DNA from: Erysipelotrichaceae bacterium
GTDB taxonomy: Bacteria; Bacillota_I; Bacilli_A; ML615J-28; CAG-313
Reading direction: 5' to 3'
NCBI GenBank assembly: GCA_015059015.1
Contig: SVBG01000003.1
Coordinates: 1-64,000 of the forward strand
Length of the DNA: 64,000 nt
The notes under the pieces were generated by a model. The model saw only the letters and a list, made by a program, of their open reading frames with translations. It was not told where the DNA came from and did no database searches. Numbering within the stretch: the stretch's first letter is position 1; the number at the start of each line of letters is the position of its first letter. Both the position numbers and the translations under genes were made by a program. Shown piece after piece: positions 28,536-59,142 of this stretch.

Positions 28536-29924
28536 TTAATTTTGTTCTTTTAATTTTGCAACTAAATTAGCTTTTTGTTCAACTAATTGATTATATTTTG
28601 CTTCAATTTGATCTTTATATTCAGTTTCAAATTTTGTTATAAATTCTTTCTTTTGAGTATTTAATTCATTACTAATTTCATTTGCTTTTTCATTCATTAG
28701 AATACTTAAATCATTATTTTCTAAAATATAATTTTCAAGTGAAGCCAAAGCTTCATTTAATGACGTAGTTGCAAGGTTTAAAGCAGAATTAGCAGCGTCT
28801 TTAGCAAATTGTAAAGTAGCTTCTGCAGTTAATAAAGCTGTTTCTTGGGCTGATAATTGTGCTAATTTAATTGTTTTTTCTAATCCTTCTTCTAGTTTTT
28901 CAATTTCAGTTTTTAATATTAAAATTTCATTTTTTAGTTTATTAACTTCATTTAATGCTTTAATATACATAGAGTCTTCTGCAATAAACATTTCATTATA
29001 AGTTTGTTTTAGAAGAGTTAATCCATTTTCAACAGATAATTGTAGTTTACTATAATTTTGAATAATTTCATTACTAAGGTTAGAAGAAGTAGTTACAAAG
29101 TTTTTAAAAATCTTTGATTCTGCAATATCAACTTCATATTCTTTGAAGTTATTATACATTTCCTCAATTGCAGTAGTTGGTAGATTTATTCTTTCAATAT
29201 GATATGCAGCAATTAAATTAATTAATTCTTTATGAGATAATTCATTTAATTCTTCTATATTAAGTGTAGAATCTAAACTTAGAAGTTTGTTTATTAAAGA
29301 TTCTTTAGTGTTATTTTTAATAGTTGTTATTTTATCTTCAACTTTAATTCCAAGTTCAGTTAATTTTTCTTCAACATGAGCTTTAAGTTCAGTTTCTATT
29401 TCTGAAATTTTATTTTGTGTTGCTTCTGCATCAATAGTAATTGTTAAGTTATTATATTCATCTGATGTTGTATATTTTACAAAGAAACCACAATCAGTTT
29501 CTATTACTAAAATTTTATCAATAGCTTCATCATAAGTTTTACCTATAATTTCATCTTCAACATCTACAATAATCATTTTACCATCATCATTTGCACCATA
29601 AACAGAGGCAACAATACCTTTTTCATCAACAGTTAGTTGAATACTAGGGTTTAAGTCTAATGTAATAACTGCATTTGTTACAATTGGTTCATTTTGTTGA
29701 TTTGTTTGATTTGAATTTAATGTGCATCCAATAACAATTGCAGATACTGTAATAATAAATAAAGCTGTTGAGATAATTGCTAATTTTTTAGTTTTCATAA
29801 ATAGTAGTAATCCTTTCTTTTTATTGTTATTTATATTAGCTTTTTCTTTAATTAAATCAATATTATCATCATGATCATAGTTTTTATTGTAATATTCTTT
29901 AATAATTGTTCTTACATTTTTCAT
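28536..29924 (-). CDS. RsgI-like anti-sigma factor with long coiled-coil exterior
   Basis: A 462-residue membrane protein. A cytoplasmic basic part (1-45) precedes one membrane helix (about 48-68). Outside, residues about 80-170 match the RsgI middle domain: ITLDLNPSIQLTVDEKGIV, then GKTYDEAIDKIL. The remaining 290 residues are Glu/Lys/Leu-rich and predicted helical or coiled-coil, perhaps a sensor. The gene overlaps the sigma factor gene by one base (TAATG), which supports a sigma/anti-sigma pair. The N-terminal cytosolic segment would bind the sigma factor. The signal sensed is unknown. Confidence 0.8.
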   Translation of the reverse strand: MKNVRTIIKEYYNKNYDHDDNIDLIKEKANINNNKKKGLLLFMKTKKLAIISTALFIITVSAIVIGCTLNSNQTNQQNEPIVTNAVITLDLNPSIQLTVDEKGIVASVYGANDDGKMIIVDVEDEIIGKTYDEAIDKILVIETDCGFFVKYTTSDEYNNLTITIDAEATQNKISEIETELKAHVEEKLTELGIKVEDKITTIKNNTKESLINKLLSLDSTLNIEELNELSHKELINLIAAYHIERINLPTTAIEEMYNNFKEYEVDIAESKIFKNFVTTSSNLSNEIIQNYSKLQLSVENGLTLLKQTYNEMFIAEDSMYIKALNEVNKLKNEILILKTEIEKLEEGLEKTIKLAQLSAQETALLTAEATLQFAKDAANSALNLATTSLNEALASLENYILENNDLSILMNEKANEISNELNTQKKEFITKFETEYKDQIEAKYNQLVEQKANLVAKLKEQN

Positions 29925-30430
29925 TAAATCAACTCCTTTCTAAGGATTTTTATGGCTGTATAATATTCAGATTGTACTTTACTAGCAGGAATATTTAAGT
30001 ATTCTGCTATTACTCGAAATTTTAGTTTATGTACAATTTTTAATATTACTATCTCTGTTTGTAATTCAGTTAAATAATTTTTAATATCATAGATTAATAA
30101 ATTATTATTAGAATACTCTTTAACATTATAGATTTCTTCATCACTATAGATTGGTTTTTTATTTGCAACTCGAGTAACATAATTTTTTGATAGGTTTCTT
30201 GCGATCATCATGACATATTGCTTAAATTTACCTGTTTCAGTATAACTATCTAATGATGTTAAAAGTTTCAAAAATGTATCTTGTGTGAGGTCTTCACTTG
30301 CATTCTTATCTTTAGTAATACTATAACAGATGTAATAAACTAAGTTAGAGTATTCATAGTATACTTGTTCAAAGGCGAATTCGTCTTTTACTTTTAGTTG
30401 TTCAATTAGTTTTTTAGTTACTATTAACAT
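29924..30430 (-). CDS. RNA polymerase sigma factor, ECF type
   Basis: A 168-residue sigma factor with region 2 (about 15-85: FEQVYYEYSNLVYYICYSITKD, EDLTQDTFLKLL) and region 4 (about 115-165: TEIVILKIVHKLKFRVIAEYLNIPASKVQS). No region 1 or 3, as in ECF sigmas. Co-transcribed with the RsgI-like membrane protein that probably holds it inactive. No obvious autoregulatory promoter was found in the 150 bp upstream, which is shared with the divergent thioredoxin gene. Confidence 0.9.
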   Translation of the reverse strand: MLIVTKKLIEQLKVKDEFAFEQVYYEYSNLVYYICYSITKDKNASEDLTQDTFLKLLTSLDSYTETGKFKQYVMMIARNLSKNYVTRVANKKPIYSDEEIYNVKEYSNNNLLIYDIKNYLTELQTEIVILKIVHKLKFRVIAEYLNIPASKVQSEYYTAIKILRKELI

Positions 30431-56961: not shown

Positions 56962-57942
56962 GTGAAAAAAATTATCTTTTTTATAATTTTTTTATGTTTT
57001 TGCTTAACATTAACTTTAAATGTTCATGCAAATAATGATGTTTATGTAATTCCAGGTGGCGAATCTATTGGTTTAAAAATTGAAACAGGAATTGAAGTTG
57101 TTGGAAAGTATACGGTTCAAACAAATAATGGTAAAAAGAATCCATGGTTAAATAGCAAAATAGATGTTGGAGATTATATAATAAAAATTAATGATATAAA
57201 TGTTTCAAATAATGAAATGTTGATAAAAACTTTAAAAGAATTGGAATCATCATCTTGTAAATTACAAATAAAAAGAGATAATAAATATTTTGATACAACA
57301 ATAGAAGTTGTTAAAACGGTTACCAATGAACCTTCAATTGGACTATATATAAAAGATAAAATGCTTGGGATTGGTACTTTATCTTTTGTTTATAATAATA
57401 AATTTGCATCATTAGGACATGGTATTTATGAAAATAATGAACTTATTAATCTAAATAATGGAGATTTAACTTACTCTAACGTTTTAAGTATACAAAAAGC
57501 AACCTTAAATAAAGCAGGAGAAAAAAGAGCAACATTAAATTCAGATACTATTGGAAAAATTAATAAAATAAAGGATACTGGTGTATATGGGACATTTAAT
57601 AAAACTATTTCAAAAAATAAAGTTAAACTTGCGGAAATTAATGAAGTAAAATGTGATGAAGCTGAAATTTACACAGTTATTAACGGTAATAATATTGAAA
57701 AATTTACTGTTGAAATAATTGAAACAAAAGCACAATCCACTATTCAAAGCAAAGGAATTAAAGTAAAAGTTACTGATTCTACTTTAATAAATGAAACTGG
57801 TGGAATTGTTCAAGGTATGAGTGGGAGTCCAATAATTCAAAACGGAAAACTTGTTGGTATAATTTCACATGTTACGTTAGATAATCCAACTATAGGTTAT
57901 GCTGTTTATGCTAAATGGATGTATGATGAACTAGTTAGCTAA
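56962..57942 (+). CDS. spoIVB: SpoIVB-like serine peptidase
   Basis: A 326-residue exported S55 peptidase. GTG start with AAAGGAGG in front. Signal peptide (about 1-23), PDZ-like domain (about 40-120: NSKIDVGDYIIKINDINV), then the peptidase domain with His153 in SLGHGI and Ser287 in GMSGSP. In Bacillus, SpoIVB cuts SpoIVFA and so releases SigK processing during sporulation. It is somewhat shorter than the Bacillus protein (about 425). It lies between recN and spo0A exactly as in B. subtilis. Confidence 0.92.
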   Translation: MKKIIFFIIFLCFCLTLTLNVHANNDVYVIPGGESIGLKIETGIEVVGKYTVQTNNGKKNPWLNSKIDVGDYIIKINDINVSNNEMLIKTLKELESSSCKLQIKRDNKYFDTTIEVVKTVTNEPSIGLYIKDKMLGIGTLSFVYNNKFASLGHGIYENNELINLNNGDLTYSNVLSIQKATLNKAGEKRATLNSDTIGKINKIKDTGVYGTFNKTISKNKVKLAEINEVKCDEAEIYTVINGNNIEKFTVEIIETKAQSTIQSKGIKVKVTDSTLINETGGIVQGMSGSPIIQNGKLVGIISHVTLDNPTIGYAVYAKWMYDELVS

Positions 57943-58053: not shown

Positions 58054-58083
58054 TTGATTAAAAACGTTGAAATATGGTATTAT
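58054..58083 (+). promoter_or_regulatory. Promoter of spo0A
   Basis: TTGATT, 18-nt spacer, TATTAT with TGG extension. A SigA-type signal; no SigH-like sequence was recognised. Confidence 0.6.
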
Positions 58084-58112: not shown

Positions 58113-58901
58113 ATGCATAATATAAAAATATTAATAGCTGAAGAATTAGAAAATAGTCAGCTAAAAATTTCAGAACAATTACAAAAAAATGGGGATTTTA
58201 ATGTTTTAGGGAGTTATGAAGAAGAAGTGAAAATATTAAATACATTAAAAATCGTTCAAGTTGATGTTTTAATTGTAACACTTTTTAAAGCAAAATTTGA
58301 TGGCGTTAAAATTATTGAAGAATTAAAGAATAATTCAAATGAATATTTAAAACCAAAACATATTGTAGCTGTAACTCATTTTATAAGTAACTACGTAAAT
58401 ACTAAACTGAATGAACTTGAGGTAGATTATTTAGCTGTTGAACCAATTTATTTTGATATGTTCATTGAAACTGTTAAAGAAATAGCATTGTCAAAGACAG
58501 ATTATGGTTCACAAAGTAATTATGACCCAAATTTAGATAGTGAAATTACTGATATTTTACATGAAGTCGGAGTTCCTGCACATATTAAAGGATATTTATA
58601 CTTAAGAGAAGCAATAACAATGGTATATCATAATATTGATATTTTAGGTGCTATCACAAAAGTTTTATATCCCGATGTTGCTAAAAAGTTTAATACTACA
58701 TCATCAAGAGTGGAAAGAGCTATTAGACATGCAATTGAAATTGCGTGGGTTAGAGGAAATGTAGAAGCTATTAGCGAAATATTTAGTTATACAATTAGTT
58801 ATAATAAATCTAAGCCTACTAATTCTGAGTTTATTGCAATGATTGCTGATCGTTTGAGACTTAACCACAGTAAAGAAAAAAGAATTAGGTATATTGCGTA
58901 A
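58113..58901 (+). CDS. spo0A: Spo0A master regulator with degenerate receiver
   Basis: A 262-residue protein. The C-terminal half (about 145-262) is an almost unchanged Spo0A effector: [39 protein letters not shown] and [24 protein letters not shown]. The N-terminal receiver is altered: the phospho-acceptor Asp is Thr56 ([14 protein letters not shown]), the acidic pair is Glu10-Glu11, and the conserved Lys of the LKP motif is Glu110 (AVEP). It should not be phosphorylated at the usual site. It may be constitutively active, controlled by level, or by a ligand. Own promoter with 0A boxes. Confidence 0.95.
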
Positions 58902-58947: not shown

Positions 58948-59142
58948 TTAAAGTTGCATTAAAACTAAAACTAAAGCAATAACTGCACTTCCAGCTAATA
59001 ATAAAGCCAATGTAGCAATAATGATTTTACCACCTAATGTACTTTGAGGTGATTTTGTAACTACATATTCAGTAGAACCATCGGCACGTTTAGTTGTTTT
59101 AATAACTGGAGTTTTCTTTTGTTTTTTAACTTTTTTACTCAT
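58948..59142 (-). CDS. Small tail-anchored membrane protein
   Basis: A 64-residue protein: a Lys-rich N-terminus (11 Lys in the first 20 residues), a Gly/Thr linker, then one membrane helix (about 40-62). GAGGT and an extended -10 promoter lie upstream, and a terminator follows, so it is a real gene. No family recognised; the basic tail could bind nucleic acid, acidic lipid or a protein partner. Confidence 0.75.
   Translation of the reverse strand: MSKKVKKQKKTPVIKTTKRADGSTEYVVTKSPQSTLGGKIIIATLALLLAGSAVIALVLVLMQL

Follow-up and report, generated by a model that had tools for sequence, protein, structure and literature searches.

A Spo0A orthologue with a pseudo-receiver: stepwise loss of the phosphorylation site in one bacterial lineage

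In bacilli and clostridia alike, the key event that launches sporulation is reported to be the phosphorylation of Spo0A (Galperin 2012, PMC3533761, in the part of the text available). Can a Spo0A work once its phosphorylation site is gone? The question is raised by a spo0A gene in the window analysed here, a stretch of 64,000 nucleotides from an Erysipelotrichaceae bacterium (assembly GCA_015059015.1, contig SVBG01000003.1, positions 1 to 64,000). We found that a single lineage gave up the phosphate site and the residues coupled to it step by step, and that the receiver fold and the reading frame were kept under selection. Because the Asp site is lost and the constraint on the sequence is maintained, we consider it probable that a genuine, single Spo0A orthologue has been turned into a phosphorylation-independent, autoregulated regulator.

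Receiver pocket and the order of its loss

The open reading frame (ORF) of spo0A is complete, its ATG start codon following AAAGGGGG. Its product reaches 238.7 bits against the equivalog model TIGR02875 (spore_0_A, cut-off 200), which identifies it as a Spo0A orthologue, and matches Spo0A_C (PF08769) at 2e-43 (147 bits). This is the only PF08769 match in the genome of the window (G000; 2.01 Mb, 14 contigs, 97.97% complete), and a second Spo0A elsewhere in it was rejected on these grounds. Gapless alignment of the DNA-binding domain with the solved Spo0A domains 1fc3 and 1lq1 gives 73-76% identity, and its structural match to 1lq1_C has a Z score of 20.8 and a root-mean-square deviation (rmsd) of 1.1 over 110 residues. 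The earlier note on this DNA, made from the letters alone, had called this domain near identical to known Spo0A, a wording that is a little strong at this percentage.

The receiver domain matches Response_reg only at E 0.095 (13.3 bits, below the cut-off of 30.2). In an AlphaFold model built from 50 sequences (mean predicted local distance difference test, pLDDT, 84.8; predicted template modelling score, pTM, 0.52), it adopts the receiver fold, with elements from E4-9 to H114-126, and it matches the phosphorylated Spo0A receiver 1qmp_A with a Z score of 20.6 and an rmsd of 1.9 over 126 aligned residues. The list from this structure comparison (VIA-align) is dominated by receivers, and absences from it are uninformative. 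At the aligned pocket positions we found Thr for the acceptor Asp, Glu-Glu for the Asp pair and Glu for the conserved Lys (E10, E11, T56 and E110), just as the earlier note had read them. The conserved Thr is retained (T88). Another Asp in the pocket, which the earlier note had named as evidence against its reading, was not seen at the aligned pocket positions; the nearest Asp is D63, the D+7 residue that is invariant in our alignment (A1). The protein thus has a receiver fold without the acceptor Asp, as in pseudo-receivers or aspartate-less receivers (ALRs), and does not have the acceptor Asp, acidic pair and Lys of a phosphorylated response regulator. The acidic pockets of the four other receivers found in the same genome are intact. 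The changes are not a sequencing error, because the 92% identical protein of the congener G011 carries the same pocket residues (EE/T/E), and those of G013 (SD/T/L) and G014 (SD/S/A) are also altered; an assembly or frameshift artefact was ruled out on the same grounds.

To place these changes, we compared 43 genomes of the order, 15 from the family of the window (f1) and 28 from a second family (f2). A spo0A gene was found in 24 of them, 13 in f1 (not in G008 and G012, which are 70-71% complete) and 11 in f2. This make-up, two families with mixed sporulation, may be that of the GTDB order ML615J-28 described in PMC10868615. The genus of the window is represented by G000, G011 (88% complete), G012 (71%), G013 (95%) and G014 (65%), and a Spo0A was found in all except G012, whose assembly also lacks a RecN match. 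Each of the 11 f2 proteins still has Asp56 and the Lys, together with Ala at T+1 and Phe at K-3. Throughout f1 (13/13), the K-3 aromatic is replaced by V, I or L, and T+1 is Q, H, N or D. The sister genera within f1 keep Asp56 in all eight readable rows and the Lys in nine of nine. Both are lost in all four genus members that have Spo0A, with T, T, T and S at the acceptor position and E, E, L and A at the Lys position. The comparison of related receivers that the earlier note had proposed thus places the loss of acceptor and Lys across the genus, with both kept in sister genera and in f2. The acidic pair varies too: its second position is E, N or K in eight sister-genus rows; D stands there in G006 and, once more, in G013 and G014. 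G006, the ninth sister-genus row, has an E-D pair and Asp56; its spo0A frame is interrupted near codon 74 (L242, G006:C30 near 20850) by a frameshift that is either real or an assembly error. The Glu-Glu pair alone is not a telling change, because the sister genus g4 has it alongside a retained Asp56 and Lys.

A Spo0A tree built without the trait columns groups the four genus members at support 99/96, with G006 as the first f1 branch, and a single loss suffices. The switch was dismantled stepwise, by family-wide loss of the beta-5 switch aromatic and of the small T+1 residue and then by loss of Asp and Lys at the level of the genus. Because the K-3 and T+1 changes are family-wide and the Asp and Lys losses are confined to the genus, the internal relay of the receiver failed earlier than the acceptor.

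Outside the order, we examined 75 Spo0A loci from the best 80 of 574 confirmed relatives, a sample in which rarer forms may be missed. The Asp56 position holds D in 67, E in seven and is unread in one; at the Lys position, 70 loci have K, and the five with Q, Y or H instead all keep the Asp. Receiver damage in Spo0A has thus arisen elsewhere too, but Thr or Ser combined with Lys loss was met in the genus of the window only, among the loci examined. The seven Glu rows (L022, L038, L049, L057, L065, L074 and L075) are mostly Oscillospiraceae-type records. The Glu-type Spo0A is the sole Spo0A_C match in the L022 genome, and the L049 genome has one such match besides a 21-bit partial match. Two further observations concern Spo0A architecture: 116-133 aa frames matching Spo0A_C in G044, G047, G048 and G052 are possible receiver-less DNA-binding domains, and a second, divergent Spo0A-like gene adjoins spo0A on the opposite strand in L011 and L015.

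Selection, kinases and 0A boxes

Selection on the two domains was estimated by a simple Nei-Gojobori count of the ratio of nonsynonymous to synonymous substitutions (dN/dS). Between G000 and G011, it is 0.109 for the receiver and 0.044 for the DNA-binding domain, with 0.107 for RecN, 0.132 for Dxs and 0.120 for XseA as reference genes. The receiver is under purifying selection comparable to that on RecN. Within the receiver, the positions invariant in the four genus members lie at 5 of 9 in alpha-4, 3 of 4 in beta-5 and 5 of 7 in the beta3-alpha3 loop, and at 1 of 13 in both alpha-1 and alpha-5. Between G000 and G011, dS is 0-0.18 around spoIIA and SASP (L198, L241) versus 0.27-0.64 around spo0A, a possible sign of recent exchange.

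The genome of the window encodes four HisKA kinases, each overlapping its own OmpR-type regulator gene, and no orphan HisKA kinase was found in it. Its nine HATPase matches are accounted for by the HisKA kinases, by SpoIIAB and by four frames, 624-694 aa long, whose size alone suggested GyrB, ParE, MutL or HtpG. Spo0B was not found: the sole SPOB_a match (19.5 bits, E 0.0015, below the cut-off of 28.1) lies in a 370-aa frame with no kinase part visible by eye and was taken as chance. The corresponding match in G011 is stronger, 36.7 bits in a 222-aa frame with a HATPase match of 26.4 bits. The Spo0A profile (E 0.001) detected no stand-alone receiver in G000, no search aimed at Spo0F having been made. 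Phosphorylation by a relay or an orphan kinase is very unlikely: the receiver has lost Asp56, the Lys, the acidic pair and the switch aromatic, and the searches turned up neither an orphan HisKA kinase nor Spo0B nor a stand-alone receiver. The "seems impossible" of the earlier note thus softens to very unlikely, cross-talk from the paired kinases being possible.

An exact 0A box, TGTCGAA, precedes spo0A at the same place in G000 and G011 (Table 1). It is the only intergenic TGNCGAA of the window. Among the 24 spo0A genes, 18 upstream regions were examined, and 11 contain TGNCGAA on either strand: those of G000, G011, G014 (two boxes), G001, G005, G007, G009 and four of the five f2 members tried. 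None was seen in G013, G002, G003, G004, G010, G006 (where the stretch is coding) or L082 (85 bases only). About 0.03 are expected per 200 bases, though the upstream rows are kin. A sigma-A-like promoter lies between the box and the gene, as a consensus match; a scan for sigma-70-type promoters gave 15 sites in the region versus 11.8 expected, barely above shuffles.

Upstream of spo0A lie nusB, xseA, xseB, dxs, recN and spoIVB, the last assigned by family search and the others named by eye, and spo0A has the same neighbours in G011. The order recN-spoIVB-spo0A is also that of B. subtilis. In G013 and G014, spoIVB is not present between recN and spo0A. Just downstream of spo0A, the opposite strand encodes a 64-aa protein (58948-59142) with a C-terminal hydrophobic stretch, 95% identical in G011 and without a Pfam match; frames of equal size occur in G013 and G010, a match in size only. 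Elsewhere in the window, 28536-29924 (minus strand) encodes an RsgI-like anti-sigma factor, perhaps with a putative sigma partner at 29924-30430.

Sporulation genes and models of control

G000 has spoIIAA and spoIIAB above cut-off next to a short sigF of 193 aa, a spoIIE match of 130 bits (none of the 43 genomes passes the cut-off of that model), spoIVA above cut-off, spoIVB, SASP, and sigK with a hydrophobic N-terminal stretch. Once SpoIVA, SpoIIE, SASP, SpoIIA and SigK had been found, the idea that sporulation was lost in the whole genus was dropped. SpoIIIAE, found in none of the 15 family members, is useless as a marker. The sigK gene has a dN/dS of 0.047-0.048 between G000 and G011 or G012, spoIVA has 0.041 to G011 and spoIVB 0.082, and SASP is 94-100% identical. 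The SASP genes of G000, G011 and G012 are each preceded, at a matching position, by CATACTA, a SigF/SigG-type -10 element. Strong selection thus acted at least on sigK and spoIVA, although neither sigE nor sigG could be detected in these genomes. Both sigma factors are required for sporulation in known models. In other f1 genera, sigG-type matches of 271-288 bits occur in 10/10 genomes, each beside a sigE-like match, and the pair of G003 alone is named by NCBIfam. A second housekeeping-type (RpoD-like) sigma factor of 388 aa lies 3.4 kb from SigA in G000 (L196:2824-3990, minus strand), and G011 and G012 have matches comparable to it in size and position. In G013 and G014, spoIVA, sigF, sigK and SASP were not found, SpoIIE gave only partial phosphatase-end matches (38-54 bits), and spo0A is retained.

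According to the reading that we prefer, a phosphorylation-independent regulator, the receiver would now mediate dimerisation or bind a partner, probably via its conserved alpha-4/beta-5 side, and the protein may bind 0A boxes without phosphate. How active it is would depend mainly on how much of it is made, with a contribution from feedback at the 0A box before its own gene, and not on a kinase. In the branch of the window, Spo0A most likely continues to contribute to a reduced programme of sporulation, and in the G013/G014 branch it would work outside sporulation. The "rewired or reused" of the earlier note thus finds some support in both its parts, in different branches; its "must" is too strong, slow decay being possible as sigE and sigG were not found. 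We also propose, tentatively and at less than even odds, that sporulation proceeds here without Spo0A phosphorylation, SigE and SigG: the pseudo-receiver Spo0A would start it, with SigF as the only such sigma factor of the forespore and SigK as that of the mother cell. Such a two-sigma programme would fit because sigK and spoIVA are strongly selected without detectable sigE and sigG, and because CATACTA precedes the SASP gene.

Several observations weigh against the phosphorylation-independent reading. That activity follows protein amount is what we infer rather than observe. The window as a whole is not enriched in boxes (TGTCGAA 3 versus 2.85 expected; TGNCGAA 12 versus 9.3), and TGNCGAA was not seen before spo0A in G013. 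Nor was it seen before spoIIA, spoIIE and sigK of G000, so there is no support for their direct control through 0A boxes; sister loci carry TGTCGAA at two of eight spoIIA and TGNCGAA at none of ten spoIIE, so the upstream-box test is weak. The receiver has diverged beyond canonical ones at equal DNA-binding-domain identity: at 80-85%, its median receiver identity is 0.30 between the window and canonical proteins (11 pairs) versus 0.58 among canonical ones (92 pairs). Between G013 and G014, dN/dS is looser, though still below 1 (receiver 0.34, DNA-binding domain 0.14), and the alpha-4/beta-5 conservation pattern is based on four sequences. Among the sporulation genes, sigE and sigG were not found in any of the five genus members. 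The spoIIE gene is less constrained (dN/dS 0.19 to G012), and for SASP the value to the same genome is 0.37-0.48, calculated from very few changes (dS about 0.1). A spoIIE match is absent in the 88% complete G011, and spoIVA and sigF were not found in the 71% complete G012.

As an alternative, a protein or small molecule may bind the receiver and switch DNA binding, making the pseudo-receiver a true switch with a new input. The purifying selection on the receiver and the high conservation of alpha-4/beta-5 positions agree with this, partner and ligand mechanisms have their own sections in the accessible text of a 2025 perspective (PMC12632262), and the conserved 64-aa protein is a candidate partner. 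However, its gene is tied to Spo0A by position alone, and the pocket varies within the genus, which speaks against a shared ligand there. We regard this alternative as unlikely.

Even less probable is that Spo0A is a vestige, drifting to loss with its receiver first as sporulation is being lost in the genus. The failure to detect sigE and sigG, the spore genes not found in G013 and G014, the lack of spoIVB beside their spo0A, and the many genomes of the order without Spo0A would suit such a decay. But the frames are intact, the receiver dN/dS and the values of 0.04-0.05 for sigK and spoIVA are low, SASP is nearly unchanged, the 0A box is kept in G011 and G014, and Spo0A persists in G013 and G014. 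Modification of residue 56 by a PrkC-type Ser/Thr kinase, suggested by the hydroxyl residue there in all four genus members and raised for that position in the accessible part of a 2015 paper on ALRs (PMC4395418), is very improbable, as the surrounding pocket is not conserved and the T to S change may be plain drift.

Table 1. Coordinates of the features at the spo0A locus and of the G000 sporulation loci (window positions unless a locus is named)
Feature	Position	Strand	Remark
spo0A ORF	58113-58901	+	262 aa, full length; pseudo-receiver and intact DNA-binding domain
Receiver domain, residues 1-125	58113-58487	+	normal beta-alpha fold in AlphaFold model
Codons 10-11	58140-58145	+	Glu-Glu at metal-binding Asp pair
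Codon 56 (ACA)	58278-58280	+	Thr at phospho-acceptor position, end of strand 3
Codon 59	58287-58289	+	Lys at D+3; 4/4 genus members, 0/8 readable sister-genus rows, 0/11 f2 rows
Codon 107 (K-3)	58431-58433	+	Leu at Phe/Tyr position of Y-T coupling
Codon 110	58440-58442	+	Glu replacing conserved Lys
Spo0A_C DNA-binding domain, residues 139-252	58527-58868	+	profile match, solved-structure alignment
0A box TGTCGAA	58028-58034	+	exact; 85 bases before spo0A start codon; same place in G011
Sigma-A-like promoter TTGATT-18-TATTAT	58054-58083	+	TG before second hexamer; consensus match only
spoIVB peptidase gene	56962-57942	+	just 5' of spo0A; full frame; TIGR02860 291 bits, cut-off 305
G000 sporulation loci	L198 144-1550; L194 8840-9511; L241 2249-2458		sister pair L202 6504-8090

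Comparison with known systems

A literature search, with most subscription journals outside its coverage, found no published report of a Spo0A pseudo-receiver. Spo0A-positive non-spore-formers have been described that resemble G013 and G014 in keeping Spo0A and losing spore genes; unlike here, damaged receivers are not mentioned in the accessible text (Galperin 2012, PMC3533761). BldM and WhiI are reported, in the part of the source available, as orphan atypical response regulators of Streptomyces sporulation (PMC4125116). The window protein shares with them that atypical response regulators govern a sporulation programme. BldM and WhiI act in Streptomyces spores, belong to another DNA-binding family and are unrelated to Spo0A.

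The closer parallel is with the aspartate-less or pseudo-receivers RitR, ChxR, HP1043 and GlnR, which likewise keep the receiver fold and have lost catalytic residues (PMC4395418, PMC12632262, both available in part). As far as these texts go, dimerisation or phosphate-free DNA binding has been reported for several ALRs, Y-T coupling and size at T+1 are among the positions that differ in pseudo-receivers (PMC12632262), and control of pseudo-receivers is called a mystery in the 2025 perspective. The accessible text of neither source gives a natural Spo0A case, although their data sets may hold such sequences: the main text of the perspective does not mention Spo0A, and the 2015 paper does so twice, for an Asp-to-Glu mutant and in the reference list.

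With the canonical Spo0A of B. subtilis and Clostridia (TIGR02875), the window protein shares full-length orthology, the DNA-binding domain, the gene order recN-spoIVB-spo0A and an upstream 0A box, and it differs in being without the acceptor Asp, the acidic Asp pair, the Lys and the switch aromatic. Because the phosphate site is gone in this genus and intermediate stages survive in its sister genera, one can read off how a phospho-switch was dismantled, the allosteric relay first and the acceptor next. The genus thereby offers a natural test of the need of Spo0A for phosphate, and of the control of pseudo-receivers.
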